41,769 nt of DNA. Source: a virus. Positions 14,981-41,577 of this stretch are shown here, in pieces. The stretch lies in the IMG/VR virus record IMGVR_UViG_3300028399_000013, positions 1-41,769 of that record. One strand, given 5' to 3'. The translations under genes were made by a program, and so were the position numbers. The first letter of the stretch is position 1. Every line of letters starts with the position of its first letter. The notes under the pieces were generated by a model. It had not been told where the DNA came from. It saw nothing but the letters and a program-made list of their open reading frames with translations, and did not search any database.

Positions 14981-15706
14981 TTAAATTCCCAGAAACATCA
15001 AAAACGGCGCCCCTTTCGCTGGGACTTCGCCGAACGGATAGGACAGCGCGTTTGCGCTGTTGTAGAGTTCACTTACCTCAGATTGGCTTAACGCTCGCCT
15101 CCAAAACCCCATCTCATCGATCCGGCCCGGGAAATAGTCGACGGAGTACCCGCCGGAGATTCGGCACCCGACGCAATATTTTCCCGAGGACGTGAAACCG
15201 CTAGTTGTTCCACTCCAGGAGTTCGCGGTCCGAGTCGCGTTCGAGTAGAACTCGATTTCGACGCCGTTCTTGATCACGAATACCAGATGCCGCCACGCGC
15301 CCGAGGTCCACGCATTGGCCGATCGCACGATGAGCGGCTGAGTCATGCTCGCCGAGTCCTTCAGCAGGCCCTCGTAGTAGTAGTAGCCCGACGGGTCTTT
15401 CACCATGCGGACGGCAAACTCGATGTTCGTGTCTCCCTTATAGACCAGATAGACATCATCAGCCGGCGTCGTCGTATAAGCCCACAGACTGATCGTCAGG
15501 TCCGACGTTCCAAGGCGAAAGTCGGGATGGTCATCGACATAGAGCCACGTACTTGTCCCCACGCGCACAGCGTATCCGAGTATCCCTGGGTCAGGCTGTG
15601 GGGATCCCACCGCATTGAGCGTGTGGGGGCCGTGGGAGTCGGCACGATTGCCGGTCGTGTTTTCGTCGAACTTCCAGTACGAGACCAGGCTGTCTAGCAA
15701 GCTCAT
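14981..15706 (-). CDS. LamG/concanavalin-like receptor-binding protein
   Basis: 241 aa from ATG 15706 in an ATGA overlap with the tail-fibre stop. VSYWKFDENTTGNRADSHGP, TSDLTISLWAYTTTPADDVY, AWRHLVFVIKNGVEIEFYSN and FPGRIDEMGFWRRALSQSEV are the signature blocks of a LamG-like jelly roll, a carbohydrate/protein-binding fold. The domain covers nearly the whole protein. Coupled to the fibre gene, it probably forms the distal adhesin that recognises a surface glycan. No catalytic residues seen. Confidence 0.8.
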   Translation of the reverse strand: MSLLDSLVSYWKFDENTTGNRADSHGPHTLNAVGSPQPDPGILGYAVRVGTSTWLYVDDHPDFRLGTSDLTISLWAYTTTPADDVYLVYKGDTNIEFAVRMVKDPSGYYYYEGLLKDSASMTQPLIVRSANAWTSGAWRHLVFVIKNGVEIEFYSNATRTANSWSGTTSGFTSSGKYCVGCRISGGYSVDYFPGRIDEMGFWRRALSQSEVSELYNSANALSYPFGEVPAKGAPFLMFLGI

Positions 15707-17277
15707 AGGTTTTGTCCCAGCACGAATCCGTCGTAACTGTCTGCCCCGGTGCAGAGGAACCCGAACACATCTGTCTTGTTGGCCCCGGTACTCAGGTTGG
15801 GCACACTTCCACCCGGCCAGCGAATGCCGCTCCACCAGGTCACGGTTCGACCGCCGGTCGAGTCTTGCGTCACCCGGATCAAGAAACGCTGGCCGACAGA
15901 GACGTTGGTGACCGCGAGCGTCCGGTCGCCGCCCAGGGTGACCTGGTGGACGTCGGCGACGTCCATATCGAACGTGATTGTTGCCGCGTCCGCATCGGTT
16001 TGAATCGCGCCGGCTGTCGCCTTCGTATGGATCTTGTCCGTCCCGTCGTCGATCGTGACGGCGCTGCTCTGCAGCACCTTGCCGGTCGTGCCGTCGAACT
16101 TGGCGATGCCGTTGTCGGTGGAACTTGCCGGCCCGGAAACGTCACCGCTTCCTCCGCCGCCGCTCCAGCCGGCTTCTGCCTGTGTCTGGTTGATCCACGC
16201 GCCCGACGCGGCGTCCCAATGGAGACCTTCGTTGTCAGTCACTGCCGTAATCGTGACGTCCGGCACGTCGTCGAGCTGCGTGATCGACAATAACCGCCAG
16301 ACCGCGGCGCCGGCGGTCGCGTCGACGCACATGTAGACTTTGTCCGCAGCGGTGTCGATCCAGAGAGACCCGACAGAATAGCCGGCGTTGCTGTCGTCGC
16401 TGGCCGTCGGGGCGGTTGTGCGCGCGAACTCGCTCCGGACCTGTTGGGCTGCGCCGGCTTCGATCCGGATCAGCCCCGACCAGGCGGAAGCGTCCGAGCC
16501 CAGGCCGCCCCGAGCCAGGGGAAGGACGCCGCTGGTGAGGTCACTGGTATCGTGTGTGTGCGCCGCGGCGGCGAGCTGGGCTTCGGCGGCGGTTTGATTC
16601 GTCCAGACTCCCGAGGCGGCGTCCCAAGCGAGCACCTCGTTTTCCGTGACGTTGCTGATCTGGACGTCGGTGAGATTACCCAGAGTGCCGCTGCCGCCCC
16701 CGCCGCTGAGCTGGAAGAAAGACAGCGCATCCGTCCCGACAACATCCGAGCCGGCGTTGTTCGTGCAGACGAAGAGCTGGTCGGCATACGTCGCCCCCTC
16801 CTTGACGAGCACCAGGTGCCCGGCCACGGCGTCACCGGCCGCCATGTCGTCCGTGCGGATCCACGTGTTGGCACTGTCCGTGCCGATCTCGTACAGCCCA
16901 TTCTCCACGCCGTTGGTCTGGGCGCGGACCAGCACGCGATCACCGGCCTGGAGTGATACGCCGTCGATCGTCTGGACGCCAGCCAGCGTGACGTTGGCCG
17001 TGGTGGCCGCGCGAGCACCGGAGAGCCGGATCGCTTCCCCTCGGACGTATTCGGCACCGTGGAGGCCGTCGAGCAGGTCCGCGTTGAGGTTGGCGACCCG
17101 TGTGTTGCTGTCGACGACCAACGGCGCGACGCCTGGCGGCGCGTCGGCGTAGAAAGTTTCGGCGCGAATCTGGAACGGGCCAGCGTCCCAATCCGCAGTG
17201 AGCTGCACGGTTCCGTCGCGCAGCAGAGCGTTATCGGCTCCCCCTAACGACGGAACGACCAGGATTTCCTCCGCCAT
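15703..17277 (-). CDS. Tail fibre protein with repeated modules
   Basis: 524 aa; AGGAGGGTAACGG precedes the ATG. It contains typical fibre motifs: LNADLLDGLHGAEYVRG, AAAHTHDTSDLTSGVLPLAR, and two copies of a 'VTENEVLAWDAASGVWTNQT'-like unit (second copy TDNEGLHWDAASGAWINQT). Gly-rich linkers (SGGGGSG) follow each unit. The C-terminal ~90 residues (NVSVGQRFLIRVTQDSTGGR, then WWSGIRWPGG) form a beta tip found on many fibres. It probably trimerises and contacts the host. Translationally coupled to the LamG adhesin. Confidence 0.8.
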   Translation of the reverse strand: MAEEILVVPSLGGADNALLRDGTVQLTADWDAGPFQIRAETFYADAPPGVAPLVVDSNTRVANLNADLLDGLHGAEYVRGEAIRLSGARAATTANVTLAGVQTIDGVSLQAGDRVLVRAQTNGVENGLYEIGTDSANTWIRTDDMAAGDAVAGHLVLVKEGATYADQLFVCTNNAGSDVVGTDALSFFQLSGGGGSGTLGNLTDVQISNVTENEVLAWDAASGVWTNQTAAEAQLAAAAHTHDTSDLTSGVLPLARGGLGSDASAWSGLIRIEAGAAQQVRSEFARTTAPTASDDSNAGYSVGSLWIDTAADKVYMCVDATAGAAVWRLLSITQLDDVPDVTITAVTDNEGLHWDAASGAWINQTQAEAGWSGGGGSGDVSGPASSTDNGIAKFDGTTGKVLQSSAVTIDDGTDKIHTKATAGAIQTDADAATITFDMDVADVHQVTLGGDRTLAVTNVSVGQRFLIRVTQDSTGGRTVTWWSGIRWPGGSVPNLSTGANKTDVFGFLCTGADSYDGFVLGQNL

Positions 17278-19521: not shown

Positions 19522-21054
19522 TTACTTGGCGGCGCCGCTCAGCATCGCCGCCGCCGGCCTTTTGGCACGTGTCGGTCCGCGTGTGTTGTTTTCCGTCTTG
19601 CGTGTGTTCTCGGCGATCTCCTGGAGCGCCTTCTGCTGAGCTTGAGCCTGTCGGCGCATCTCGGCCAACTCCTCATCACTGGGTATGTAGGCCTGCGAAG
19701 TGCGGGCTCGCATGCGGACGGCCTGCGAATACGCATTGTCGCCGAATCCGAACCACAGGGCCTGTTCCGGCGTTGCGCCAAACCCGCGCGCGAGTTTGTA
19801 GCCAGCCATCTTGATGTAATACTGGGCCGGGGCCATTCCGATCTCTTTGGCGACGTTTTTCATTTCCTGCTCGTAAACGTCCGCCAAGTCGTCTTGGGCT
19901 GCGGAGGCGAGCCGGCCGCGCCCGGCGGCTCGACGGGCGGCGGCCGTCCGGCCGCTAAAGGCCTCGCGCACATCTTTGTCGAATTCGCCCGCTTTTTGTT
20001 TGGCGATCATCTCTTCGAATATATCGCTCCCCTTAATCATCTTGCGTGAGGCAGCAACGGTCCGATCGCCGAACAGCGTGGCCAAAATCGCCGCGCGGTC
20101 TTTTTCTGGGGCCTGCTCGTAACCTGCTCGGAGGCGTTTCAGGACTTCGCCGATCGATTCACCAACCAGGTCGACGTCTTCCGGTCGCAGACCGAGCTGT
20201 TGCAGAGCCTTGACTTTGGCCTTTTCCTTGCCGGCGGTCTGCAGCCTAAGAATGAAATTCCGCAAGCCGGTCGTGGATTCCTCGGCGGGGAAGGATTGCC
20301 GCGCGAGGGCCAGCATCGCGAGCTGCTCCTCGATGGACAGAGCCCCCTCAAACGTGGCGGCCTGCTTGGCGAATTGCTGCAGGTCGGCGACTTGGATGTT
20401 GGTCGACTTGAACAAGGCCTGTACGCCGCGGCCGACGCGACGCAGATTCTGCGCGTTGAGCTCCAACCCTTGCGACGACATGTAAGAGGCGATGGCCTGC
20501 GCCATTTCGCGGGGCTCGACGTCTTTGCCCGTCAGCGTCGAAGCCCCCATCAGTTTCAAGAACTCGCGCAAGGATTCACCAGTGGCCTCCTCGACGGAGA
20601 AACCGCTCGACACCAACTGCCTGGCAGCGGCCTCTGCGCTCACGACGGGCGTTTCGCTGATGGGGAGCTGCAGAGCGATCTGCTCGATGCGTTTCTGCGC
20701 CTTTTCGGCCTCCAGTCCCCGCAGTCCGGCCTGGACGCGGAATTTGCGGAAGGCCTCATCCATCGTCTTACCTGCTTCGACAGCTTCGTGCTGCCATTCC
20801 TGGCTGGCCTGCATGACCAGATGCAGCGCTCCGACCACACCGCCTGCTCCGATCAGCCCTTCGACGAGTGAGCGGGCCGAGCTGAGTGCGCCGGCGAACA
20901 GGCCACGCGTGGCTTGCTGAGTGCGCAAACCAGCTTGCGCCGTGCGCTGCAGGGCCAGATTCGTGCGCAATATCTGCTGCTGCGTGCGCTGGAAGTCCCG
21001 CAGCACGTCGCTCATGTCGGAGGTGATGGTAAAAACGGCCTCGCCGGCAGGCAT
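19522..21054 (-). CDS. Tape measure protein
   Basis: 510 aa; AAAGG lies just before ATG 21054. It is almost entirely helical, beginning MPAGEAVFTITSDMSDVLRD, with a Gly/Leu-rich hydrophobic segment at ~60-85 (LVEGLIGAGGVVGALHLVMQ) and long coiled-coil regions to the C-terminus (QKALQEIAENTRKTENN). Position after the tube and frameshifted chaperone genes is diagnostic. At ~0.15 nm per residue it predicts a tail near 75 nm, with no sheath gene, i.e. a siphovirus. It sets tail length and probably enters the host envelope at infection. Confidence 0.85.
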   Translation of the reverse strand: MPAGEAVFTITSDMSDVLRDFQRTQQQILRTNLALQRTAQAGLRTQQATRGLFAGALSSARSLVEGLIGAGGVVGALHLVMQASQEWQHEAVEAGKTMDEAFRKFRVQAGLRGLEAEKAQKRIEQIALQLPISETPVVSAEAAARQLVSSGFSVEEATGESLREFLKLMGASTLTGKDVEPREMAQAIASYMSSQGLELNAQNLRRVGRGVQALFKSTNIQVADLQQFAKQAATFEGALSIEEQLAMLALARQSFPAEESTTGLRNFILRLQTAGKEKAKVKALQQLGLRPEDVDLVGESIGEVLKRLRAGYEQAPEKDRAAILATLFGDRTVAASRKMIKGSDIFEEMIAKQKAGEFDKDVREAFSGRTAAARRAAGRGRLASAAQDDLADVYEQEMKNVAKEIGMAPAQYYIKMAGYKLARGFGATPEQALWFGFGDNAYSQAVRMRARTSQAYIPSDEELAEMRRQAQAQQKALQEIAENTRKTENNTRGPTRAKRPAAAMLSGAAK

Positions 21055-26221: not shown

Positions 26222-27058
26222 CGTCGAACCTCCTCGATCAGATTGCGAGTCCACAAACCGTTGGAACGACGTCAGCACGGACTCGTAGGTGCCGACCTCG
26301 TCGATCAGTCCCAGCCGGCGGGCTTCGGCCGCCAGCCAGACGCGGCCGTCCGCCAAACGGTTCAATTGCTGCTCGGACACATTGCGTCCCCGGCGCACGG
26401 CCGCCAAGAAAAACTCGTTGTGTTCTTCGACCAAGCGCTGCCACTCCGCGAGCTGCTCGTCCGTGATCTCGGTGCCCGGCACCCCCGCGCCCTTGAAGCG
26501 GCCCGTCGTCAACAGGTGCACCTTGATGCCGGCGTCTTCAAACAGACCCGTCCAGTCCCAGACGACGGCATAAGTGCCGATCGAGCCGATCAGAGCCGGT
26601 TCGTTGGCCGCAATCCGATCGGCCTGGCTGGCGATCCAGTAGGCGGCGGAGGCCCCGAGGTCCTCGATGTAGGCCCAGACAGGCTTCCACTGTGCGGCGG
26701 CGGCGACGTCATCCGCGAGTTCCTTGGTCCCGTCGAACGCGCCACCGGGCGAGCTGATCCGCAGCAGAATGCCAGCGACCTGGTCGTCGGCGAGCGCTCG
26801 CCGCAGCCGGTCTCGCACGTCCACGGTCGACGTCCCGCGCCAGGGTTTCGCTTTTGCCAGCGGTCCTCGCAGTTCGAGGATCGCGATGGAGCCGGCACGC
26901 TCGAATGCGCCCGCACCGTCATCCTGCTGGGCCCGGTCGGACCAGAGGCGATCCCCTCTCAGACACGCCTCGATGGCCAACCGGGCCTGCTGCGGTGCGA
27001 CGGCCCAGACGGTTTCCGCCGCCCCGGCCGGTGCTTCAGTCCATCTCGTCTGCGGCAT
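25760..27058 (-). CDS. Capsid maturation protease (S49/SppA-like, lambda C type) with scaffold C-terminus
   Basis: 432 aa. The S49 peptidase domain spans ~50-270: ILELRGPLAK, GILLRISSPGGAFDGTKE (oxyanion-type SPGG), DLGASAAYWIASQAD (catalytic Ser in G-A-S-A-A-Y) and TTGRFKGAG (Lys of the Ser-Lys dyad). Residues ~280-432 are helical and charged (LQTDLQTARAERDEARAAAE), matching a scaffolding domain. The enzyme should cut scaffold, portal or coat proteins during head maturation. It overlaps the portal gene end by 23 bases. Confidence 0.85.
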   Translation of the reverse strand: MPQTRWTEAPAGAAETVWAVAPQQARLAIEACLRGDRLWSDRAQQDDGAGAFERAGSIAILELRGPLAKAKPWRGTSTVDVRDRLRRALADDQVAGILLRISSPGGAFDGTKELADDVAAAAQWKPVWAYIEDLGASAAYWIASQADRIAANEPALIGSIGTYAVVWDWTGLFEDAGIKVHLLTTGRFKGAGVPGTEITDEQLAEWQRLVEEHNEFFLAAVRRGRNVSEQQLNRLADGRVWLAAEARRLGLIDEVGTYESVLTSFQRFVDSQSDRGGSTVSDERNEPRAATLNELKGACPGADSQLLLEWIERGLSVEKAREEFLAWQALRLEELQTDLQTARAERDEARAAAEKLRAELETLKATASPGTEALADGTPNSIAAGSGSVRDQWRELVRAKVAEGLPRFKAVQLVARENPELREALIAEANAN

Positions 27059-28619
27059 CGTTTACTCCGTTTGGGTTGGCTTCGTCGCCGGAAAGCGCCA
27101 ATCGGATTCCCTGCGCCGTGGGCGTCGGGATAAGGTCACGCCAATGGACATCGACGCCAAGCTCGTCGGACAACTGGCGTGCGGCTTCAGCCGCCAGCCG
27201 AATGGCAAACGCTCGGTCTTCGACGATCTCGCGCGCCAGAACGACCCAATCGGTGCCCCGCTTCGCGGCGAAGCGCCGGGGACTGGTCATACCGTTGGCC
27301 AGCTCCAGCAAGTTCGCCGTGGCGTCGTGCACCGGCTGGATGTACGGCCAACCGACGGGATTCCATCGGTGACGCATCAGGTCGGCGACGCTTTTCGTAC
27401 GCGCGAATGCCTGCAGCTCGGGATCATTCAGCAGCCATTGGCGGACTTTCCAGCGATAGACCTCGGCGTGGAACTGGCTGGCAAACCAAGACTGGATCTT
27501 GCCATACGTGGCGCGGGCTTGATCGATGACGTTGCGATAGCTGCTGAAGTTGGCCTCGCGCGCATCCAAGAGCAGCACGATCAGCGGCAGGTCCAGATTG
27601 ACGGCCAGGTAAGTCAGTAACAGGCGAACGTGCTCGAAGTACGGTTCGCTCGGGATGCTCGGTGAGAACCCGCTGAGCTTCTCGCCCGGCTCGCCTTGCA
27701 GGATCATTCCTGGATGCAGGCTGGTCTGAGTGAAGCCTGTGCCGTCCGCCCAGGTCGAGCTGGTCTGCTCGCCCAGTTCCGAGCCGTCGCTGCTGGCCAT
27801 CGAGCCCAATTCCCGTTCGCGGAAGAACGCCACACAGGCCGACACCTGGGCCTTGACGAGCATGGCGAAATCCAAGTCGTCGCGCATGCCCAGGACGGTC
27901 GTAACCGGTGCCAGGGCCGTGATGCCGCGTGTCTGGCTGAATCGCTCGGGATTGTAGACGTGAAAGACCAGGCGATTGCCATCGGCGTCGACAGCCGGGA
28001 CGCGGCGGACGTCGGCGACGCGCACCTGCTCGTTCGGGTCGACCGGTTCCCGCGTGAAGGTGTACGCGACGGGCCGGGCTCGGTTATCAAGAATCACGCC
28101 GCAGACGCCGCGATCGCGACGGGCGCGGTCGGGCGTGCGGCAGCGGTGGGCTTCGAGCGTCTGCAAGGTTCCGTCCCGTAACGGCAAGGCGAAAAAGTCG
28201 CCGTCGATGACGACCCGGGCCAGGCCCAGATCGGCCATCTGCTCGAAGGTCAGTTTGCCGGCCGCGTGGCAAACGCTCGGCTGCGAAGACCACTCCTGCC
28301 ATCGCGAGCGCAGATGCTCGTCGACTTCCGGGTCCCCGGTGTCGGGATCGAGCTGCATCCCGCCCACGTTCACGTTGCACACGAGCCGGCGGACTGCCTG
28401 ACGGATCAGAGGTTCGTTCCGCTCGAAGTGCCGCGCCAGCTCGACCATGGTCAGGAACCAACGCTGGTTCCGAATGTGGTAATCCGCGCTCGCGCCGTTC
28501 ACAGGAAGAGAGACCTGCCGCAAGAAGCGGTTGGACCGGTAGCGAGCGGCGTCATATTCCGCCCGGACTTCGGCCATTTGGCGGCAGATGGACGGTGGTC
28601 GTGGTCGTCGGTCAGGCAT
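27036..28619 (-). CDS. Portal protein (lambda gpB family)
   Basis: 527 aa from ATG 28619, whose A is shared with the upstream TGA (TGATG). It begins MPDRRPRPPSICRQMAEVRA. Characteristic blocks: RNQRWFLTMVELARHFERNE, RRLVCNVNVGGMQLDPDTGD, LARVVIDGDFFALPL, VFHVYNPERFSQTRGITALA and MVKAQVSACVAFFRERELGS. The dodecameric portal nucleates head assembly and is the DNA channel. The adjacent protease and terminase confirm the call. Confidence 0.9.
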   Translation of the reverse strand: MPDRRPRPPSICRQMAEVRAEYDAARYRSNRFLRQVSLPVNGASADYHIRNQRWFLTMVELARHFERNEPLIRQAVRRLVCNVNVGGMQLDPDTGDPEVDEHLRSRWQEWSSQPSVCHAAGKLTFEQMADLGLARVVIDGDFFALPLRDGTLQTLEAHRCRTPDRARRDRGVCGVILDNRARPVAYTFTREPVDPNEQVRVADVRRVPAVDADGNRLVFHVYNPERFSQTRGITALAPVTTVLGMRDDLDFAMLVKAQVSACVAFFRERELGSMASSDGSELGEQTSSTWADGTGFTQTSLHPGMILQGEPGEKLSGFSPSIPSEPYFEHVRLLLTYLAVNLDLPLIVLLLDAREANFSSYRNVIDQARATYGKIQSWFASQFHAEVYRWKVRQWLLNDPELQAFARTKSVADLMRHRWNPVGWPYIQPVHDATANLLELANGMTSPRRFAAKRGTDWVVLAREIVEDRAFAIRLAAEAARQLSDELGVDVHWRDLIPTPTAQGIRLALSGDEANPNGVNDAADEMD

Positions 28620-28918
28620 CAGTCGCGAAACGTCTGAAAGGAGGCATGGATGACACGGCGCGAGCGCGACGCGGCGGTCGTATCGTGATTGCGGAGCCAT
28701 TCTTTGGCGGCCAAAAGCTCCTTGCGGATCAGGTCGGGGCTGAGAGCGACCTGATTTCCCCCCTTGCCGGTCAAACGAGGCATCATGCGCAGCAATAGCC
28801 GGCAGGCGGTGATGAAGACCTTCGCCTTCGCCGGCGAGTTGTCCTCCTCGTAGGAGGCATTGTCGGCGTAGGCCGCTTCGATGTCCGCCAAACTGCTCTG
28901 AGAATTCAGCGTGGCCAT
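28619..28918 (-). CDS. Small head-region protein upstream of portal (99 aa)
   Basis: Helical protein starting MATLNSQSSLADIEAAYADN, with the motif SPAKAKVFITACRLLLRMMP and a polar C-terminus. Its stop shares a base with the portal start. In lambda this slot holds gpW, a small head-tail joining protein; length (99 against 68) and sequence do not prove homology. Likely a capsid or neck assembly factor. Confidence 0.55.
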   Translation of the reverse strand: MATLNSQSSLADIEAAYADNASYEEDNSPAKAKVFITACRLLLRMMPRLTGKGGNQVALSPDLIRKELLAAKEWLRNHDTTAASRSRRVIHASFQTFRD

Positions 28919-29305: not shown

Positions 29306-29313
29306 CACTGCTC

Positions 29314-31287
29314 CTATCGATCCGTAGCCAAAAAAGGCCGACCATCTGGGGTCGTGAGCGTGCGAGGAACCACCCGCTGGCGGCGTCTGCGTGGGACCGG
29401 CTTACGCGACATCTCGCGGTTCCAATCCCGGCCGTTGTTCTTGTAGTGCCAGGCCATCACGACTGCATAGCGCAAGGCGTCGCGAAACTCGTTGTCCCCC
29501 CGCTTCCGCCAGTGACCGTTTTCGTCCAAATAGTCGTTGCAGAGCTGCTGCGCGAAGTCGATGCCCGTGACCGGCTGGCCGTGAAAGACTTCGGCCGGCA
29601 CGCTGAACCAATCCCGATCCGTGCGCTTCACCAGGCCGGTGATGCGGTCCTCGATCCATTGCTGCGTGCGCGTCGTGTTGGGCTCGATCAGGTCGTACTG
29701 GCCGATCTTGATCCGGGCTGCCACGAGCTTCGGCGGCACCCCGACCCGCTGCATCGCCGGCCGGTACATCTCAATAAAGTTCCCGGCAAAGAAAGGCCGG
29801 CTTGGGTCCGTCGAGGAGCCTTTCACGGGCCAACAATTGGGCAACTCACGGCAGAACGAATAAACCGCTTCGGTGAAGGCGCCCGAGTCGATTCCGATCC
29901 GGACCGGCCGCAGCGCAGGACCGCCATCCGCATGGGGGTACTCCCAGCGGGCGCAGGTGCGCCGCATCTCGTCCTTGCTCCACGCGATTCCGTAGTCGAC
30001 CAGTTGGGACCGAGCGTACTGTCCCCAGGCGATGACCACCCAGTAGAAGATCAGCTCCTCGCCGATCCGGCCCACGTCCGCCCCGACTGTCAGGAACCGC
30101 GACCACTCCGGACAGACTCCCAGCGGTTCATCCACGGCCAGGCGTTCCGCCAACTCGTGAGGCTCGACCGACCGCGGCGCTGGGTCCCACGGCTCGGCGA
30201 GCGTACCGGTGACGAACTCGCGCAACGAGTCGGCGTTGGCCTTGGCCGCGAGAAACTCCGCGACCAATGCGCCCCAGCCGGGGATGACCAAACTGTATAG
30301 CGACGAAATCCCGTCAAAGACGACGATGTCCGGACCGATTTTCGGCCGCCCCAGCACGCGCCCCGTCTTGGCCAACCGCTGGCCTTCCGCGATCCACTTG
30401 CCGGCACGGATCATGCCCGGACGATCCGCATCTGTGATCTTGCAGCCGCTCTGACAGCGATAATAGGCCGTGGCAACGGCTTCTGTAGCGCCGGCCTTGT
30501 CGTCCCACTTCACGCCCGGGCCTTTACCGCGATCGCCCCAAACCAGGCGCTGGTATTTCCCGCAGTGCGGACATCGCACGAAGAAATACCGCCGCTGCGC
30601 GGCTGCCGAGTCGGCGAAGCTGCTGATCGCGCAATCGCCGACTGCTTCCGGCTTGCCCTCCAGGATGTACTTGCTGTCATACGGAAACAGCCTTCCTCGC
30701 TGCAGGAATCGCCGGATCGCGTTCGGCGACCAAAGCCCGGCTTCGTTGACGACCCCGTAGCAGGCCGGATACCCCGCCAGACTGGCGCGGCTGCCAGCGT
30801 ACGCCTTGCGAATCAACCCTGTCTCCAGGCGGACGCCTAGTTTCAGGTTCTGGCGGTGCGGCGGCAAAAGGATCGGCTGGCCGGCTCGCAGCCGATGCGC
30901 CATCGGGATCACCAAGTTCTGCACCAGATCATCGACCGAGGCTTCGTCCGCCGACGCGACCGCACAAGGCCGCCCCGTCGTGACCGCCCAATACAGTAGA
31001 CAGGCGACGGCGGTCAGAGTCTTCGCCGACCGAGTCGCCCAGCGTAGCACGATTACGCGCACCATGGGATCGTCCACGGCCTCCAACACCCCGCGCACAT
31101 GAGGGAACATCGCAGCATCGAACGGCCCCGGCGTCTCGCACACGTCCGGGATAACGACATGCGCGGGAACCCACTCGGCGCACAGCACCCTTGGCGGCGG
31201 TCGCCATACCCGCCAACTGGCACGCAGCAGCTCGTTTGTCGCGACCCTCCTCTGCTGCTCACGAGACACTATCCTTCGTCTGGCCAC
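29314..31287 (-). CDS. Terminase large subunit (lambda gpA family)
   Basis: 657 aa. ATPase part: WATRSAKTLTAVACLLYW is the deviant Walker A of GpA-type terminases; VASADEASVDDLVQNLVIPM follows. The diagnostic central Zn-like block is FVRCPHCGKYQRLVWGD with CQSGCKITDADRPGMIRAGK. Nuclease part: VGADVGRIGEELIFYWVVIA, then IGIDSGAFTEAVYSF and WPVKGSSTDP. It cuts concatemers and pumps DNA through the portal. It overlaps the small-subunit gene by 29 bases. Confidence 0.92.
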   Translation of the reverse strand: MARRRIVSREQQRRVATNELLRASWRVWRPPPRVLCAEWVPAHVVIPDVCETPGPFDAAMFPHVRGVLEAVDDPMVRVIVLRWATRSAKTLTAVACLLYWAVTTGRPCAVASADEASVDDLVQNLVIPMAHRLRAGQPILLPPHRQNLKLGVRLETGLIRKAYAGSRASLAGYPACYGVVNEAGLWSPNAIRRFLQRGRLFPYDSKYILEGKPEAVGDCAISSFADSAAAQRRYFFVRCPHCGKYQRLVWGDRGKGPGVKWDDKAGATEAVATAYYRCQSGCKITDADRPGMIRAGKWIAEGQRLAKTGRVLGRPKIGPDIVVFDGISSLYSLVIPGWGALVAEFLAAKANADSLREFVTGTLAEPWDPAPRSVEPHELAERLAVDEPLGVCPEWSRFLTVGADVGRIGEELIFYWVVIAWGQYARSQLVDYGIAWSKDEMRRTCARWEYPHADGGPALRPVRIGIDSGAFTEAVYSFCRELPNCWPVKGSSTDPSRPFFAGNFIEMYRPAMQRVGVPPKLVAARIKIGQYDLIEPNTTRTQQWIEDRITGLVKRTDRDWFSVPAEVFHGQPVTGIDFAQQLCNDYLDENGHWRKRGDNEFRDALRYAVVMAWHYKNNGRDWNREMSRKPVPRRRRQRVVPRTLTTPDGRPFLATDR

Positions 31288-35574: not shown

Positions 35575-35634
35575 CCGCACGACGGGACTTCTGATGAATG
35601 TGTGATCCGGCGGGCTCCACGCGGAAATGTACTA

Positions 35635-35663
35635 TTACGAGAACGCGGCCATCCTGCTATAAT
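35635..35663 (+). promoter_or_regulatory. Promoter of the repressor gene, predicted leaderless
   Basis: A perfect TATAAT at 35658-35663 and a weak -35 (TTACGA, 35635-35640) with 17-base spacing. The ATG follows six bases after the -10, so a start site ~7 bases downstream coincides with the A of ATG 35670. GGAG lies between -10 and ATG and would serve only transcripts from further upstream. Lambda cI mRNA from PRM is leaderless in the same way. Confidence 0.6.
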
Positions 35664-35669
35664 GGAGAC

Positions 35670-35933: not shown

Positions 35934-35960
35934 CAGCCTGTTCTAGGTTTAGTACAACTG

Positions 35961-35995
35961 GCCGGTGCTGGCTTTGGCTGGCACCGGCTTTTTTT
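35961..35995 (+). terminator. Rho-independent terminator after the repressor gene
   Basis: GCCGGTGC (35961-35968) pairs with GCACCGGC (35981-35988), 12-base loop, followed directly by seven T (35989-35995). Confidence 0.85.
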
Positions 35996-36037
35996 GTGGC
36001 CTGCTTTTCTCGCGAAACGACGATCGGGGACGGAGCC

Positions 36038-36376
36038 ATGCCGGACGTGCAGCGTGAGCTGTTCGATCGGAGCTGGCGGCAGGAGCTGCTGGAGCGGGAT
36101 CGGCCGGCGGCCCATAACCGGACCGAGACGTCGATCGCGGCGGCGGAGCGGATTCGCCCGACGGCCGGGACGAAACGAGCGATCGTCCTGGAGACGATCG
36201 AGCGAGCTGGGACGGAAGGGGCAACGATCGACGAGATTGTGCAGGTTACGGGCCTTTTGACGGCCACTGTCTGCGGGCGGATCAACGAGCTGAAGCGGGA
36301 CGGCTGGATTCAGGACAGCGGCCGGCGCCGGCCGACGCGGTCCGGCAGCCCGGCGATCGTGTGGATCCGGCGGTAA
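36038..36376 (+). CDS. Winged-helix protein (112 aa)
   Basis: GGGGACGGAGCC precedes ATG 36038. Residues ~48-108 (KRAIVLETIERAGTEGATID, EIVQVTGLLTATVCGRINEL, KRDGWIQDSGRR) form a winged helix common in small phage proteins with the ending GSPAIVWI. The N-terminal 45 residues are charged and helical. It may regulate early transcription or act near replication; the exact role is unknown. Confidence 0.65.
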   Translation: MPDVQRELFDRSWRQELLERDRPAAHNRTETSIAAAERIRPTAGTKRAIVLETIERAGTEGATIDEIVQVTGLLTATVCGRINELKRDGWIQDSGRRRPTRSGSPAIVWIRR

Positions 36377-36388
36377 GAGGAAAAACTG

Positions 36389-36410
36389 GGCGCCGCGACG
36401 AGGCGGCGCC
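36389..36410 (+). other. GC-rich hairpin after the winged-helix gene
   Basis: GGCGCCGC-GACGAG-GCGGCGCC, a perfect 8-bp stem 12 bases after the stop, without a T-run. The 246-base stretch 36377-36622 before the integrase holds this hairpin; no further gene in it is convincing. Confidence 0.5.
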
Positions 36411-36622
36411 AGCGATTAAGGGATGCGGCAGGATGGCCAATCGGGACGGAGCGGGACAGATCGGGGTGGTCGGCCCCAGGGAGGTGAGGAGCGATGCGGG
36501 CCGGCGGCCCGGGCCTCTGAGCCGGAGGGTCGACGATGTATGCTGCATCCTTTCCGCCATTACACATCTCAGTCATTCTCCAATGGGGACAGCCGGAACA
36601 GTCGAGCACGGAGGGGCCGGTG

Positions 36623-37714
36623 ATGGCAGACCAGGGCGGGCCCGCCCCACGGTTGCGAGTGTTTCCCCCTACGGGGGCTTCTTCCCCCTACGGGATGGGC
36701 AATCCCGTAGGGGAAAACGATTCCGCCGGCTACTGGCCGCTGCGCCGCTGCTGGGAGGAATCGCTCTCAAAGAAAATCGAGCTCTCGCCGGCGACGCTGA
36801 AGCACTACCGCCGGCTCATCAACCAGTGGGAAGCTTACTGGCGCAAGCGCGGCTGCGAGCGTCCGCTCGGCCCGGACGTGCGCGAGATCCAGCCGAAGGA
36901 CTTCAACGATTTCGCTCGGGCCCAGGGGTGGACAGCGAAGTCCACCTGGTCCACGCGGCGCGATTATTTCGGGAAGATTCTGAAGTCGGTTGCCCGGGCG
37001 AGCAAATCGTGTCCGATCGGGCTGACGGAAGGCTGGCTCTTCGAGCAGCCGCCATTCCTCGCCCCGCTGCCGCCGGGGCTGGCGCCAAAGCCCGAGACGC
37101 CCGAAGCCCTCACCGTGGACCAATTCGCCCGGCTGCTGGAATGCTGCGACGGCGCTCGCTGGCCCTGGAGACGAGCGATCGTGCCGGCTCCGGTGCTGTG
37201 GCGTGCTTATCTGAGCTTCCTCTGGGTCTACGGGTCGCGCAAGGACGCGGCATTGCGGCTCACTTGGCGGGAGGTCGATCTGGAGCGCGAGCGGCTGGAT
37301 TACGTGCCGGACAAGAAGGCGGATCGGGTGTCGGTCGCCCTTCACACACTCTTGCTGCCGCTGCTGCATTTTCTCCGCGATCGATCGCCGGACCGCGTCT
37401 TCCCGTTTCCCAACACGGCGCGGACGGCCGCCCAGGAGAATTTCAATCCACAGCTCAAGGCGATTTTTCGGGCGGCCGGCCTGGTAGAGCATACCAGCCA
37501 CTTCTTTCGCGTCTGCTGCGTCACCAACTGGCAGACGCTGGTCGGGCGGCGGACTCGCTTCGTGACCGGACATCGGCCGCAGGGCGTGCAGGAAAAGCAC
37601 TACGACAGTCGAAGCGCTCGCCAGGTGATCGCCGAGCGAATGGCCGAGTATCCGATGCCGCCCGCCGAGACGCTCTGGGCTGGCTTACCGTTGGAATACC
37701 TTCCTGGAGCCTGA
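36623..37714 (+). CDS. Tyrosine recombinase / phage integrase
   Basis: 363 aa from ATG 36623 (GGAGGGGCCGGTG ahead). SAM-like N-terminal domain ~45-140 (LSPATLKHYRRLINQWEAYW). The catalytic domain carries all expected residues: Arg206 (YGSRKDAALRLTWREV), Lys231/232 (DKKADR), His293-x-x-Arg296 (HFFR), His317 (GHRP) and nucleophile Tyr327 (HYDS). It cuts att sites through a 3'-phosphotyrosine link. Residues ~13-35 (FPPTGASSPYGMGNPVGEND) are encoded by an inverted repeat, so the true N-terminus may begin later. Confidence 0.85.
   Translation: MADQGGPAPRLRVFPPTGASSPYGMGNPVGENDSAGYWPLRRCWEESLSKKIELSPATLKHYRRLINQWEAYWRKRGCERPLGPDVREIQPKDFNDFARAQGWTAKSTWSTRRDYFGKILKSVARASKSCPIGLTEGWLFEQPPFLAPLPPGLAPKPETPEALTVDQFARLLECCDGARWPWRRAIVPAPVLWRAYLSFLWVYGSRKDAALRLTWREVDLERERLDYVPDKKADRVSVALHTLLLPLLHFLRDRSPDRVFPFPNTARTAAQENFNPQLKAIFRAAGLVEHTSHFFRVCCVTNWQTLVGRRTRFVTGHRPQGVQEKHYDSRSARQVIAERMAEYPMPPAETLWAGLPLEYLPGA
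36663..36717. repeat. CCCCTACGGG inverted/direct repeat inside the integrase 5' end
   Basis: Two direct copies of TTCCCCCTACGGG (36663 and 36682) and one inverted copy (ATCCCGTAGGGGAA, ending ~36716) form a hairpin of ~14 bp with a single-base bulge. The repeat remains in frame and lengthens the integrase N-terminus. Confidence 0.7.
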
Positions 37715-38235
37715 TGCGTCCACTCCCTCTGAGCCCGTCGGGGGTATCCAACGACTTCGTCTCTGTCCGGTCGACGAGTCCCCCTCCCCGGCGGGCGTTT
37801 CTTCTGGTCCCCGCTGTGTCGCATCACGCGAGACCTCCTGTAGAGCCGCCGGCGGACGATCCGATCTTCCGTGCCTATCTGATCGTCGCGCTCATTGTGG
37901 CAGCGATCACGTTCGTCGTGCTCACTCTGCAGGGCGACGGCGTGCCGGGCAAGTGGAGACCGCTGCCCGGCCGGATCGAGGCCTCGGTGATGTTCGGCCT
38001 CGCTTGGCCGCTGACAGTCCTAAGAGTGGGTGTGGTACGGGATCACGACGTTTTGGCGGCGTCACGCGACTCGGAAGAGGTGACGGAACGATGTGTGAGG
38101 AATCGCGGCGTGCTGCAGAATCGGCCAGGCCGGCTGGTTCTGGCATCACCACCTATCGGTCCTGGATTGAGGGACCCCGGTTTGCCGGCCGGTGGGATTG
38201 GGCCCTGCGCGACATGGCCCGCACGCTCGGGCTGA
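37714..38235 (+). CDS. Small two-TM membrane protein downstream of the integrase
   Basis: ATG 37714 shares a base with the integrase stop (TGATG). The Pro-rich first ~50 residues are followed by a TM segment (FRAYLIVALIVAAITFVVLT) and a second hydrophobic stretch (IEASVMFGLAWPLTVLRVGV). The last ~48 residues lie over the next gene (38091) in another frame and may not be conserved; a frameshift near 38090 that once ended it earlier cannot be excluded. Function unknown. Confidence 0.5.
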   Translation: MRPLPLSPSGVSNDFVSVRSTSPPPRRAFLLVPAVSHHARPPVEPPADDPIFRAYLIVALIVAAITFVVLTLQGDGVPGKWRPLPGRIEASVMFGLAWPLTVLRVGVVRDHDVLAASRDSEEVTERCVRNRGVLQNRPGRLVLASPPIGPGLRDPGLPAGGIGPCATWPARSG

Positions 38236-38366
38236 GCATCACAGTGCAGCGCGAGACGAGCCTGTTGAGGCAGCGAGTCGACTTCACGATCTCTGGACGC
38301 CGGGAGAACGTGCTCACATTTCTCCAGTGCCTGCAGCGTTTCGTCGACGAGTGGAACGAGGAATGA
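38091..38366 (+). CDS. Hypothetical early protein (91 aa)
   Basis: AGAGGTGACGGAACG precedes ATG 38091. It contains IEGPRFAGRWDWALRDMART, then LGLSITVQRETSLLRQRVDF and a helical end (ENVLTFLQCLQRFVDEWNEE), a beta-alpha-beta-like small domain. The stop is one base before the next ATG. No family recognised. Confidence 0.55.
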   Translation: MCEESRRAAESARPAGSGITTYRSWIEGPRFAGRWDWALRDMARTLGLSITVQRETSLLRQRVDFTISGRRENVLTFLQCLQRFVDEWNEE

Positions 38367-38367
38367 G

Positions 38368-38910
38368 ATGCGGGATTTCACCGACTACGAGCTTTGGGTG
38401 GTCCGCCAAGCTGAGGGAATCGTCCGTATGCTGCAGGAGGCGGCTCAAATCGCACAGGCCACCATACCGCCCCTTGGCAAGACCTGCAGCCGTCGCGAAC
38501 TGGAGCTGTACCGGGAGATCATCGACGCCCGCCGCGCCGCCATAGAAGCAAGAGACCGCCTTGGCCAAGCGATCGACCTATATCGTACGCCGGCGATGGC
38601 CGGACCTTTTCCGAGAAAGGAGGAGCACGCAATGGGAGAGACCGTTCGTTATTCGATAGGTGTGGATAGCCCAATCACTCCACAGGAACCTCTGCCGGCG
38701 CTGCCGGAGATTCCTCGCGGCGCCTTGGTGGTGGTCGAGGGGTGGGCGCCGATCTGGCGGTACGCGATGGCGCTTCACCGGCTCCACGGGTCGCCGGCCG
38801 GTGCCATCGCGGTCTATGACCCGCGTCTCGGAGCCGTCGTTGTCCAGAGCCACACGCCCGCATACGCGGAAGGGGACGTGCTGGACTTCCCGGAGGATAG
38901 GGCGCAATGA
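38368..38910 (+). CDS. Helical protein fused in frame to Csx3 (long form)
   Basis: 180 aa; GAGGAATGAG precedes ATG 38368. Residues 1-88 (MRDFTDYELWVVRQAEGIVR, then EIIDARRAAIEARDRLGQAI) are an unknown helical domain, and residues 89-180 are the Csx3 domain. There is no stop between them, although the internal start at 38632 has a better ribosome-binding site. Either the fusion is real and both forms are made, or the N-terminal gene has lost its stop. Confidence 0.6.
   Translation: MRDFTDYELWVVRQAEGIVRMLQEAAQIAQATIPPLGKTCSRRELELYREIIDARRAAIEARDRLGQAIDLYRTPAMAGPFPRKEEHAMGETVRYSIGVDSPITPQEPLPALPEIPRGALVVVEGWAPIWRYAMALHRLHGSPAGAIAVYDPRLGAVVVQSHTPAYAEGDVLDFPEDRAQ
38632..38910 (+). CDS. csx3: Csx3/Crn3-like CRISPR ring nuclease
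   Basis: 92 aa; GAAAGGAGGAGCACGCA precedes ATG 38632. The core, VVVEGWAPIWRYAMALHRLH followed by AVYDPRLGAVVVQSH and a final GDVLDF, matches Csx3 (Pfam Cas_csx3). His49-x-x-His52, Asp63 and Arg65 correspond to the catalytic His-Asp-Arg set known in archaeal Csx3, which degrades cyclic tetra-adenylate. On a phage with no type III CRISPR genes in view it is most likely an anti-CRISPR that removes the cOA alarm. The family match is from sequence recognition; the role is inferred. Confidence 0.85.
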   Translation: MGETVRYSIGVDSPITPQEPLPALPEIPRGALVVVEGWAPIWRYAMALHRLHGSPAGAIAVYDPRLGAVVVQSHTPAYAEGDVLDFPEDRAQ

Positions 38911-39128
38911 CCAATGCAAGGAGCCGGTACGTCGCGGTATGTCCCAAGTGCCGATGGAAGGGATACAGGGTTGAACCGGAATGTGAGTGCTACGACCGCG
39001 TGTGCCACGTGTGGGCACCGGGCCTTGGATGTCCGCGGCAAGCGAAACGACCATGCCCGCACTGCGGTGCGGAAGTGATTGCGTACCCGGTGCGGTTCAG
39101 ACGGAGGATAGGGGGCAATGACAGGTGA
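38907..39128 (+). CDS. Zinc-ribbon protein (73 aa)
   Basis: ATG 38907 overlaps the csx3 stop (ATGA). Cys pattern: VCPKCRWKG, ECECYDRVCHVW, GCPRQAKRPCPHCGAE, i.e. eight Cys plus His, enough for two zinc sites. It may bind nucleic acid or a protein partner. Translationally coupled to csx3 and so probably made with it. Confidence 0.6.
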   Translation: MTNARSRYVAVCPKCRWKGYRVEPECECYDRVCHVWAPGLGCPRQAKRPCPHCGAEVIAYPVRFRRRIGGNDR

Positions 39129-39423
39129 TACAGACGCTACACTGCCGTCCCAGCATCTCTGGGACGGCATCGACGCCTTTCCCGGGGATGTAGACGAGAG
39201 CGACATCCTCGCGCAGCCGCTTCTGCGCGATCTCGACGATTTAGACACTGTCCCTCGCTGGGTCGCGCGCTTCGTCCTGCGCGACCTGCGGGAGCTGCGA
39301 GCGATCTGTGAGGCGGCGGGGATCGAGCTGGACGTATCACCGTGCCGCGAGTGCAATCGCGAAACGGTCTGTCTGCCCGAGGGACTGCTGCCGATCTGCG
39401 TGGACTGCCGGAGGGCGGAATGA
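39118..39423 (+). CDS. Acidic protein with C-terminal four-Cys zinc motif (101 aa)
   Basis: Begins MTGDTDATLPSQHLWDGIDA, very acidic, with a helix RWVARFVLRDLRELRAICEA and a CXXC...CXXC end (PCRECNRETVCL and PICVDCRRAE). Overlaps its neighbours on both sides. Function unknown. Confidence 0.6.
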   Translation: MTGDTDATLPSQHLWDGIDAFPGDVDESDILAQPLLRDLDDLDTVPRWVARFVLRDLRELRAICEAAGIELDVSPCRECNRETVCLPEGLLPICVDCRRAE

Positions 39424-39776
39424 CCGTCGTGCCATTGAATTTGCAGCGATGGATCGAAGGCCGGCTGGAGAACAGCGGCTGGGACCACATATTGACGGTC
39501 GTGCCCGAAAGCGGAGGCGGGGTTCGTCGGCGCATCCGTGTTTGGCTGTCGCACGATGGCCTCCGGCTGGCCATTGTCTGGCCGCACGCGACGCGGGTCA
39601 TCGACCTAACGGTCGCCCCGGAGCATAACCCGGAGCAGGGCGAGTACCACAATGGGGCGATGGGTCTATCAGTGCTGATCACCCGACATGGGAGACAGGA
39701 GGCAGACGATGGCGAACAAGCAGAAAACGCCGGGAAAGAAAGAGACGGCGAGCAAAATCTTGACGGAGCTGGGTGA
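39420..39776 (+). CDS. Hypothetical early protein (118 aa)
   Basis: ATGA overlap with the upstream stop. Begins MTVVPLNLQRWIEGRLENSG; beta-rich core (RRRIRVWLSHDGLRLAIVWP). The last ~22 residues (EADDGEQAENAGKERDGEQN) overlap the following gene in another frame. No family recognised. Confidence 0.5.
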   Translation: MTVVPLNLQRWIEGRLENSGWDHILTVVPESGGGVRRRIRVWLSHDGLRLAIVWPHATRVIDLTVAPEHNPEQGEYHNGAMGLSVLITRHGRQEADDGEQAENAGKERDGEQNLDGAG

Positions 39777-39927
39777 AGCTGAGTTGGACGTCACTCGGCT
39801 GGAGGACCGCATGGATGAGCTCCGCGAAGAGCTGAAGGACGCAAAGAAGGAGTACCAGGCCGCAGTCGCTCGTCTGCGGCTGCTCGTCCGGGACGTGGCG
39901 ACAGGCCAGATGCGACTGTTCGACTGA
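39709..39927 (+). CDS. Coiled-coil protein (72 aa)
   Basis: AGGAGGCAGACG precedes ATG 39709. After a basic head (MANKQKTPGKKETASKILTE) there is one long heptad helix (LDVTRLEDRMDELREELKDA) and a short end TGQMRLFD. The MRLFD-type tail resembles a beta-clamp-binding peptide (consensus Q-L-[S/D]-L-F) only loosely. It probably oligomerises. Confidence 0.55.
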   Translation: MANKQKTPGKKETASKILTELGEAELDVTRLEDRMDELREELKDAKKEYQAAVARLRLLVRDVATGQMRLFD

Positions 39928-40045
39928 CAACAGGACGGACACGGACGGGTGAGGCTGGCTGAGGGATCGGCTGGCGGAACGGATTCGCCGGGCCGGGGTA
40001 CGGACGCCCCGGCCCGCATGGAGGCTCGGATCAGGAGGACGGGAA

Positions 40046-40264
40046 ATGCTAGTGCTCGGACGCCAGCAAGGCGATTCGATCGTGATTGATACGCCGCTGG
40101 GCGAGATCACTATCACCGTTGTGCGGCTGGGCCAGCGCTACGCTCGGATCGGCATCGAGGCCCCGGCCGGCTGGCCGATCGTCCGATCCGAGATTCGCGG
40201 CCGCGAGGAACCGGCAGACGACGAACTGCCGATGCGCGTGGCGTTGAGGAATCTGCGGACGTGA
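40046..40264 (+). CDS. csrA: Carbon storage regulator CsrA homologue
   Basis: 72 aa; AGGAGGACGGGAA precedes ATG 40046. MLVLGRQQGDSIVIDTPLGE, ITITVVRLGQRYARIGIEAP and WPIVRSEI follow the CsrA fold: N-terminal MLVL-R, the GI-AP turn, and Arg47 equivalent to the RNA-contact Arg of bacterial CsrA. It binds GGA-containing hairpins over ribosome-binding sites. Encoded just upstream of the initiator, it could control phage mRNAs such as the leader at 1431-1528 type, or reprogramme the host. Confidence 0.85.
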   Translation: MLVLGRQQGDSIVIDTPLGEITITVVRLGQRYARIGIEAPAGWPIVRSEIRGREEPADDELPMRVALRNLRT

Positions 40265-40357: not shown

Positions 40358-41242
40358 GTGCAACTGGAATTTGACTTCGATCCCAAACTCGAATCAGCAG
40401 CGAAAAACGATGAGCGACTGGAGGCCGTCGGAGTCTCAGCAATGCGGCGAGCCGTGATCTGGCTGTTCCAACTCCACCCGGAAGCCAAGCGCGATGGCAC
40501 GTTGATCCGGCTCGATCTGAGCTTCATAAAGGCATCCCAGTGGCTGCGCAACCAGGCTCGGTGGCGAAACTTGCGCTGTGCCGACACGAACGTGCGACGC
40601 GCCTGCGTGTTCTGGCAGCAATTGCACTGCGTCGCGATCCTGAAGCGACCACGAGTCCTGCTGCTGGATGTGGCGCGACTGAGCGAGTGGCTCTATCGCG
40701 AACAAGAAGCGGTGGAACGAGCCGTCTCGTCGGCTCTCAATTTCGCCGGCGACGGAGCCCCCCCGAAAACAAATCCGACCCGGTCCGACCCGATCCGACC
40801 CGCGTCGACCCTCAGTGAGAGAGTGAGTGAAGAAAAAACTCATTCACTCACTCACTCTGTGGGCGGGGTGGATCGGTCCGATCGGACGGATCAGACGGAT
40901 CGGACAGATCATCCCTCGGCACCGGCCGGGGCGTCGGTGGTGCTGCCTCGGCTGCCGGTGGAGGTGTGGGAGCCCGGCCGAGACGATCGGTCGCTGTATC
41001 GGCTGCTGCGGGCGTATTGGACCGAGCACGGGCCGGCCCTCGAGGCGGCCGGCATCGACGCCGACACGTTCACCGGCGCCGTCCTGGCCGCTCGGGCCCA
41101 GCCACGCACCGACCCGCAGCGTTACGCCGAGCGGTGCCTGGAGCTCGGCCTGACGGAGAACTGGCTCGCCCAGGGGCGCGCCTGGCGCCGCCGGCAGAAG
41201 ATTCTGTTCTCTCGGCCTATCACACATGGAGCGGTGCAATGA
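40358..41242 (+). CDS. Replication initiator protein (putative, lambda O-like organisation)
   Basis: 294 aa from GTG 40358 (AAGGAGG 9 bases ahead; GTG 40349 is too close to it). The N-terminal domain (~20-120; RRAVIWLFQLHPEAKRDGTL, then LRCADTNVRRACVFWQQLHC) looks like a winged helix. Residues ~140-190 are a low-complexity linker, encoded by repeats. The C-terminal domain (LPVEVWEPGRDDRSLYRLLR to the end) recurs at 2-352. Like lambda O, it would bind repeats and recruit helicase through its C-terminus. No sequence homology to O is claimed. Confidence 0.6.
   Translation: MQLEFDFDPKLESAAKNDERLEAVGVSAMRRAVIWLFQLHPEAKRDGTLIRLDLSFIKASQWLRNQARWRNLRCADTNVRRACVFWQQLHCVAILKRPRVLLLDVARLSEWLYREQEAVERAVSSALNFAGDGAPPKTNPTRSDPIRPASTLSERVSEEKTHSLTHSVGGVDRSDRTDQTDRTDHPSAPAGASVVLPRLPVEVWEPGRDDRSLYRLLRAYWTEHGPALEAAGIDADTFTGAVLAARAQPRTDPQRYAERCLELGLTENWLAQGRAWRRRQKILFSRPITHGAVQ
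40775..40810. repeat. Four inverted 10-bp repeats inside the initiator gene
   Basis: CGACC at 40776, 40786, 40796 and 40806: the complement of the GGTCG unit, again exactly 10 bp apart. Encodes the NPTRSDPIRPAST linker. Opposed to the direct array at 40265-40334. Confidence 0.8.
40821..40853. other. Perfect 11-bp hairpin inside the initiator gene
   Basis: GAGTGAGTGAA-N11-TTCACTCACTC with an A-rich loop (GAAAAAACTCA), immediately after the inverted iterons and before a GATCGG-rich stretch (40869-40910). Relative AT-richness in a GC-rich gene makes it a candidate unwinding element. Confidence 0.65.
40891..41194. repeat. Right copy of a diverged long direct repeat (partner 1-304)
   Basis: See 1-304: ungapped match with about ten substitutions, offset 40,890 bp. 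Confidence 0.85.
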
Positions 41243-41577
41243 CACTGAAGCAAGGCGAACCGCCGGCGTCAGCCGGCGGGTGTAAAGCGGCTGAACAGTC
41301 AGACGTGCCAAACCCGCTGGAGCGGGCCCTATTCCTCTGCGGGATACTGTGCGCCCTGCTGCGGAGACATCCGCAAGGGCGGGTCCTATTCATCGCCCGC
41401 CAAGCGGAACAGCACACCTGGGTCGTCATTTGCCGGCGGCGGGACTGGCCGCGAGCGATCTGGCAGCTCGCTCGTTGGGCCTTCGACCGCTCGCTCCCGC
41501 TCCGCCCCCGCCACGCCCTCGGTCTGGCCGTGCGGCTCACCGTGCAGCTTTTTAGTGCGAGGCATAGCCATGATTGA
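41239..41577 (+). CDS. Conserved phage protein, paralogue of 637-954
   Basis: 112 aa; ATGA overlap with the initiator stop. From NPLERALFLCG onward it closely follows the 637-954 protein (HTWVVICRRRDWPRAIWQLA identical). Residues ~5-20 (QGEPPASAGGCKAAEQ) come from an in-frame CCGCCGGC-GTCA-GCCGGCGG palindrome (41260-41279) absent from the left copy. Function unknown; kept next to the initiator in both early regions. Confidence 0.75.
   Translation: MTLKQGEPPASAGGCKAAEQSDVPNPLERALFLCGILCALLRRHPQGRVLFIARQAEQHTWVVICRRRDWPRAIWQLARWAFDRSLPLRPRHALGLAVRLTVQLFSARHSHD
41260..41279. repeat. CCGCCGGC palindrome in frame at a gene start
   Basis: CCGCCGGC-GTCA-GCCGGCGG, perfect 8-bp arms, 4-base loop. 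Same family as 19257-19276 and 19320-19339; the paralogue at 637 is without it. Confidence 0.85.

Follow-up and report, generated by a model that had tools for sequence, protein, structure and literature searches.

Cellular Csx3 and the ring nucleases of viruses

Csx3/Crn3 cleaves cyclic tetra-adenylate (cA4) in a Mn-dependent reaction by means of two dimers paired head to tail, and AfCsx3 of Archaeoglobus fulgidus (PDB 3WZI, 6YUD) is reported to regain activity when its two inactive variants, H60A and D69A, are mixed. In AfCsx3, according to passages of the work describing it (PMC7371418), the substitutions H60A and D69A abolish activity, R71A and H80A reduce it strongly, and the side chains of R46, S44 and R71 contact cA4; H57, H60 and H80 are given there as absolutely conserved in Csx3. 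The same passages report that a cellular Csx3 partly relieves cA4 immunity in vivo and that MmCsx3 does less there than AcrIII-1. AcrIII-1 (viral Crn2, DUF1874) is a virus-encoded ring-nuclease family aimed at cA4 (PMC12409355). The available sections of that paper, published in 2025 and covering 28,114 phage genomes, count AcrIII-1 in 36 genomes, Csx20 in 4, and Csx16 in 2 and do not name Crn3. Recent additions, as described in excerpts of PMC12751052 and PMC12830947, are the viral SAVED ring nuclease (AcrIII-2) and phage Crn4b, the latter found in cells, phages, and plasmids; both families are unrelated to Csx3, and the cOA specificity of Crn4 is broad. The viral ring nucleases on record in accessible portions of the open-licence literature are AcrIII-1, the viral SAVED protein, Crn4b, and a few Csx16 and Csx20 proteins, and those portions (including PMC12409355, PMC7371418, PMC12751052, PMC12830947, and PMC13148439) hold no report of a phage-encoded Crn3.

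The csx3 gene analyzed here lies on a contig of 41,769 bp, the whole of which is referred to as the window. Its product is a viral ring-nuclease homologue of a family so far described from cells. It shares family, fold, and five catalytic or invariant residues with AfCsx3 but is only ~37% identical to it over the fold alignment, stands in a phage context, and differs in having Trp for Arg46, Glu for Ser44, a 2-residue insertion after the His motif, and a possible 88-aa N-terminal extension. Like AcrIII-1, it belongs to a ring-nuclease family and is virus encoded; unlike AcrIII-1, whose activity is proven, it has another fold and family, and its activity is predicted. A comparable copy is the crn3 of the Pyramidobacter sp. 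YE332 "plasmid" NZ_CP133039.1, of the same Csx3 clade (65% identity), which adjoins integrase, LexA, and phage-type replication genes; the record is filed as a plasmid, its crn3 was named by automatic annotation, and that it is phage DNA is our reading of the annotated genes.

The window encodes a genuine Csx3/Crn3

The 92-aa open reading frame (ORF) at 38632-38910 is a genuine Csx3/Crn3, with matches far stronger than expected by chance. Its assignment to this family in the initial annotation was borne out by the Pfam search, in which PF09620 (Cas_csx3) scored 79.5 bits (E = 1.7e-22; cut-off, 21), and by the equivalog model TIGR02579 (65.0 bits; cut-off, 55.4), the PADLOC Csx3 model (3e-25), and a sequence search that retrieved the AfCsx3 chains in PDB (4e-13). 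Cas_csx3 was the sole Pfam match at E ≤ 1, so that DUF1874, the AcrIII-1 family, did not match, and no PHROG matched at E ≤ 1. A fold search retrieved Csx3 structures at 3.7e-6. The AlphaFold2 model was confident (pLDDT, 93.4) and gave 13 PDB matches at E ≤ 0.001, every one a Csx3 and among them the cA4 complex 6YUD, with TM scores of 0.69 to 0.76 (by query length); a library of viral fold models gave no match at E ≤ 0.001. Codon differences from six relatives fell mainly in third positions (e.g., 20/15/47 at the three codon positions over 92 codons in comparison with the viral copy L028), as expected under purifying selection.

No stop interrupts the csx3 frame between 38632 and an ATG at 38368, which would give a product of 180 aa, and codon-position GC of the upstream stretch is coding-like (70/47/69%). 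From the frame and its composition, the product may be 180 aa, 92 aa, or both; Csx3 might have a dual start or carry 88 additional N-terminal residues, and the upstream stretch might either extend Csx3 or be a gene whose stop has been lost. A pattern search for relatives of the 88 aa gave 12 matches, 0 of which were relatives, and confirmed no viral relative. The 243-aa ORF of the viral homologue L157 ends in Csx3, and N-terminal extensions of 60 to 80 aa are reported for some Crn4 proteins of phages and plasmids (PMC12830947, in the sections available). The longer ORF of L157 (7530-8261), which like that of L156 carries Csx3 at its C terminus, has Lys at the position of AfCsx3 Arg71.

Table 1. 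Features of the window and the basis on which each was assigned
Feature	Position	Strand	Basis or remark
Head decoration/tail fibre-like protein	15703..17277	-	phrog_2647, 1.3e-22
Tape measure protein (weak match)	19522..21054	-	phrog_1293, 4.9e-7
Portal protein	27036..28700	-	phrog_21, 1e-62
Terminase large subunit	29314..31287	-	phrog_15, 2.2e-85
Tyrosine integrase	36536..37714	+	phrog_1, 1.7e-16; PF00589 under cut-off
Small ORF between integrase and csx3	37953..38366	+	No family match
In-frame stretch upstream of csx3	38368..38631	+	88 aa, no stop; ORF 38368-38910; codon-position GC
Ribosome-binding site AAAGGAGG	38616..38623	+	8 nt before csx3 ATG; from sequence
csx3/crn3	38632..38910	+	92 aa; PF09620, TIGR02579, PADLOC, PDB sequence and fold matches; residue columns
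ORF after csx3, zinc-ribbon-like	38907..39128	+	Start overlaps csx3 stop; under Pfam cut-offs
CsrA-like regulator, phage-borne	40046..40264	+	PF02599, 2.4e-14 (over cut-off); phrog_9500

csx3 lies among the early genes of a tailed phage

The contig is a genuine tailed phage, and since terminase, portal, and integrase genes stand on it together with csx3 (Table 1), Csx3 is virus encoded. Further products include a resolvase, a staphylococcal-nuclease homologue, an S49 peptidase, and a glycosyltransferase. The terminase was 40% identical to its best viral match, and terminase matches were found in 2 of 392 genomes of the phylum, the phage's own included (the other at 29%). The gene csx3 lies in the early region, as the initial annotation had it, within a plus-strand run of small genes that extends from the integrase to CsrA. 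Queries for cas genes (14 PADLOC, 19 Pfam, and 20 PHROG, with Csx3 counted in two forms) covered part of the contig's small ORFs and found none, in line with the earlier claim that cas effector genes are absent from the window, and a direct-repeat search of the window gave no CRISPR-like array. No type III locus was found on the contig, which the window spans entirely.

Two other earlier claims concerned the ORF that follows csx3. A zinc ribbon is suggested, with scores under the cut-offs of the Pfam zinc-ribbon models (15.2 bits; cut-off, 27). That it forms a module with csx3 was not supported: this gene and seven other neighbors had no homologue at E ≤ 1e-3 in the fetched loci outside the phage's own bin.

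The ends of the contig repeat a diverged early module (1-306 and 40891-41196, 96.7% identical; 674-896 and 41312-41534, 88%), either because the module was duplicated or because the ends are variants, from different strains, of a genome that is circular or permuted. Three other contigs of the same bin, C35 (L153), C564 (L154), and C799 (L155), are fragments of related phages; on C35, the part of the early region that follows csx3 is present in a variant form.

Close genomic relatives are mainly type III genes

With a 4-sequence alignment (A2) as the query of a collection of species genomes, 45 loci were found whose best segments were 62 to 78% identical, in planctomycetes, Methanothrix and its relatives, a Nitrospirae, a Solibacteraceae, and a Pyramidobacter genome, and others. 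Cas genes lay beside csx3 in 37 of the 45, a locus being counted as cas linked when at least one gene matched the type III/I-G Cas proteins of the phage's own bin directly or via a shared cluster; a CARF-cluster gene was present in 20. This type of Csx3 is thus mainly a type III gene, as the initial annotation had stated in saying that Csx3 usually adjoins type III loci. The eight loci without such a Cas match were L034 and L052 (both viral), L060, L067, L072, L075, L077, and L078, some of which are short contigs or degenerate copies. Compared with CRISPR-linked Csx3 proteins (L050, L036, L048, L049, L022, and others), the window protein was 66 to 77% identical and fell in the same clade; those genes stand with cas genes, often with a CARF protein upstream, whereas the window copy stands with phage genes. 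L022, considered as a prophage copy, was rejected, being a chromosomal type III locus. A Cas10 palm match was obtained in 20 of 21 searched genomes of relatives; because the palm control also gave matches in 5 of 14 well-known genomes, including that of E. coli, a single weak match carries little weight.

Methanothrix-type loci (L054, L065, L067, L069, L072, and L073) hold tandem extra or degenerate csx3 copies. Weak PF09620 matches from a survey of the phylum (L010 to L019) were left out of the relatives; L010, L011, L018, and L019, from the phylum of the window's genome, are Csx3-like C-terminal ends of longer frames and resemble the CARF-HEPN-Csx3 fusion model of PADLOC, the frame of L010 holding one in-frame stop, and L017 is a short frame. 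Among 72,556 plasmids there were 3 matches, the phage-like Pyramidobacter record and two cyanobacterial plasmids, on one of which csx3 lies by RAMP and cas6 genes and on the other by TIGR03985 CRISPR-associated and Tn7-like genes. One cyanobacterial plasmid (L160; NC_019740.1, 31679-43858) carries two adjoining crn3 genes, a TIGR03985 gene, and Tn7-like TnsA/TniQ.

Viral copies of csx3 and their placement on the tree

Six viral-context loci were examined, including the window. Neighbors of csx3 were UvsX and SbcC/SbcD in L028, a primase in L029 (whose Csx3 is identical to that of L052, a prophage of Pyramidobacter sp. C12-8), both terminases in L031, thymidylate synthase and a DHH phosphoesterase in L033, and a baseplate protein and an integrase in L034, a provirus of Methanothrix SKW87. 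As the genes tested in L028, L029, and L033 are metabolic or replicative, their viral nature leans on IMG/VR too. Within the stretches examined, no cas match was found around csx3 in any of the six (0/6). A later viral scan added L156, L157, and L158 and refound the far homologues L002 and L003, making nine loci in all; the neighbor-family scan covered the six loci above. Two Csx3 queries of 50,697 phage records gave no match. Cas10 was found elsewhere in all three examined hosts of viral copies, namely, the window's own bin, Methanothrix SKW87, and Pyramidobacter C12-8, the match in the last spanning 83 of 133 positions. In the far viral-contig homologue L003 (8001-8192), the catalytic Asp and Arg are both Ala in the aligned columns and the three His are kept; such a protein could possibly bind cA4 without cleaving it.

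On a tree of 47 sequences, the viral label required four changes, two of them forced by strong branches, and the viral rows formed one group in 0% of 200 bootstrap trees; support was low on the 94 columns used, the bootstrap was not settled, and L033 was a long branch. Since 9 of 500 label shuffles were equally low, the label is somewhat clustered. These label changes indicate that csx3 probably entered viruses on more than one occasion. The Methanothrix provirus copy L034 shared 81% identity with L057, the CRISPR-linked Csx3 that its genome also carries, and grouped with L057 and L050. The window row had no supported sister; its nearest row was L028 by path and L050 by identity (77%), and its end branch was long (0.83; median, 0.27). 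The tree omitted L072, L077, and L078 (degenerate or truncated), L052 (with the protein of L029), the far L002 and L003, the extra degenerate copies of L054, L065, L067, L069, and L073, and the later-found L156 to L158.

The genome bin holds a type III-D locus

The bin to which the contig belongs comprises 818 contigs (completeness, 93.8%; contamination, 6.9%), and the only Csx3 in it is that of the window. Its contig C68 (17.9 kb) carries a type III-D locus with Cas10d (1.9e-98), Csx10, Csx19, several Cas7, and a CARF-PDDEXK protein with a Card1-type endonuclease domain (Card1/Can2-like), followed by type I-G genes; the Cas10 has the GGDD motif. Card1/Can2 proteins are cA4 gated. Judged from its gene content, this locus is a plausible target for the phage Csx3, the phage and the locus being joined by binning alone, in a bin with the contamination given above. 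Of 12 genomes in the family, 3 had Cas10d matches, the phage's own included. The type III-D operon as a whole lies between two copies of a 37-nt repeat (L005 513-549 and 10336-10372) that has no further copy in the bin, a sign that the operon moved as a unit.

The initial annotation had also proposed a survey for spacers. In the bin, none was found against window positions 1-40000 (searched as 1-20000 and 20001-40000) among the candidates scored, which were 40 of 74 and 40 of 70 first-look candidates. Besides the window contig, C35, C564, and C799, the search left only short matches of 21 to 49 nt (77 to 100%; E ≥ 0.0018). Imperfect repeats at L005 10063-10318 (73 to 86% alike), taken with their surroundings, match the window over at most 13 nt. 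The planctomycete host named earlier was not supported, as the RpoB of the bin was nearest to that of a Solibacteraceae genome (70%), with 63% for a Nitrospirae metagenome-assembled genome and 54 to 59% for six planctomycetes; in a seventh planctomycete genome, RpoB was matched in two pieces (50% and 77%). This comparison, nearest of the 12 genomes tested, does not settle the host phylum.

Active site and proposed role

Alignment to AfCsx3, with an offset of six for AfCsx3 numbering derived from the printed alignment, placed H57, H60, D69, R71, and H80 at window residues H49, H52, D63, R65, and H74. In an alignment of 49 Csx3 sequences, one of which is that of the window, all three His columns were invariant, the D69 column was kept in 48, and the R71 column was kept in 45. 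The His, Asp, and Arg residues listed in the initial annotation are therefore all present, but a Trp at the position of AfCsx3 Arg46 had been overlooked. Trp38 occupies this position in the window alone, Arg being found in the other sequences (48/49), and its codon, TGG, is one base off an Arg codon. At the position of S44, the window has E36, and Glu is found in 45 of the 49 sequences, CRISPR-linked ones included. The S44 and R46 side chains are highly, not absolutely, conserved and do not define Csx3; the window protein has neither. Trp38 speaks against an ordinary enzyme.

With moderate confidence, we propose that this integrase-bearing tailed phage uses a cellular-type Csx3 to blunt type III CRISPR defence. 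On infection, host Cas10 would sense phage RNA and make cA4, dimers of the phage Csx3 would sandwich cA4 head to tail and hydrolyze it to linear A2-P, and cA4-gated effectors, such as the Card1/Can2-like nuclease of the bin, would be switched off sooner. Csx3 identity, fold, and catalytic residues, the surrounding phage genes, the lack of any cas gene among the ORFs scanned, purifying selection, the difference in cas linkage between genomic relatives and viral copies (37/45 versus 0/6), the tree, Cas10 in 3/3 hosts, and the partial in vivo relief of cA4 immunity reported for a cellular Csx3 favor this proposal; Trp38, the lack of a spacer against window positions 1-40000, the link by binning only, and the absence of matches in the 50,697 phage records weaken it. 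The gene type originates in type III loci; that csx3 is expressed, and at what time, that its product cleaves cA4, and that the phage benefits are points we infer, as we do the anti-CRISPR function itself. Given the weaker in vivo effect of MmCsx3 relative to AcrIII-1, Csx3 captured by a virus might make a poor anti-CRISPR and would have to be strongly expressed or kinetically improved; such a change, or else decay, might lie behind the long branch and Trp38 of the window protein.

Decay belongs to an alternative that we consider unlikely, in which the phage Csx3 would no longer degrade cA4 and would be a decaying passenger, a slow binder (sponge), or a protein for another cyclic nucleotide. 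Such a loss could explain why a residue whose side chain contacts cA4 in AfCsx3 was replaced solely in the window protein, on so long an end branch, yet all five equivalents of H57, H60, D69, R71, and H80 were retained, csx3 substitutions gather in third codon positions, and the site tolerates change, the S44 position having Glu in most sequences.

We give still less credence to an aid to lysogeny, by which Csx3 made from the prophage would damp type III signaling set off by prophage transcripts and keep the lysogen alive. The integrase adjoins the csx3 region, two relatives lie near an integrase (L034) or in a prophage (L052), and cellular Csx3 is slow in vivo, as stated in passages of PMC7371418. 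However, no attachment site or chromosomal flank was seen on the contig, which is all phage as far as it was scanned, and L028, L031, and L033 had no integrase among the listed ORFs of the stretches examined. That csx3 is not phage-borne at all, by chimeric assembly or as a type III gene of the chromosome bordering a prophage, is highly improbable: the sequence is a metagenome assembly whose ends repeat a diverged early module (1-306 versus 40891-41196), but csx3 sits inside the plus-strand run that links integrase and CsrA and shares bases with the ORF after it, the type III-D locus of the bin lies on another contig and lacks Csx3, C35 shares a variant of the downstream region, and viral-context relatives of Csx3 exist.

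If the phage Csx3 does erase cA4, as we propose, viruses would have reused a further cellular off-switch, probably repeatedly; the usual view, in which Csx3 is an enzyme by which the host resets its own system, would need qualifying, and csx3 genes without adjoining cas genes might serve counter-defence. On the broader idea that Csx3/Crn3 is a recurrently captured viral ring nuclease, a further type III anti-CRISPR family acquired from type III loci on several occasions by tailed viruses that infect bacteria and archaea, of which the Trp38 version may have a host-matched ligand shift, our judgment is evenly divided. The 81% identical provirus and CRISPR-linked copies in one Methanothrix genome make the difference between viral and cellular Csx3 directly testable.

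Structured leaders upstream of late genes

Structured, repeated leaders lie upstream of minus-strand structural genes at 12098-12239, 18613-18822, 19332-19486, and 21850-21980 (minus strand), with structure z-scores of -3.6 to -6.1 for the four copies. Hairpin loops of the AGGA or GGGA-like type are the kind of site bound by CsrA. The leader at 18613-18740 has one hairpin with an AGGA loop and another with a GGGA-like loop, and the phage CsrA-like protein may possibly control the late genes via these structured leaders.
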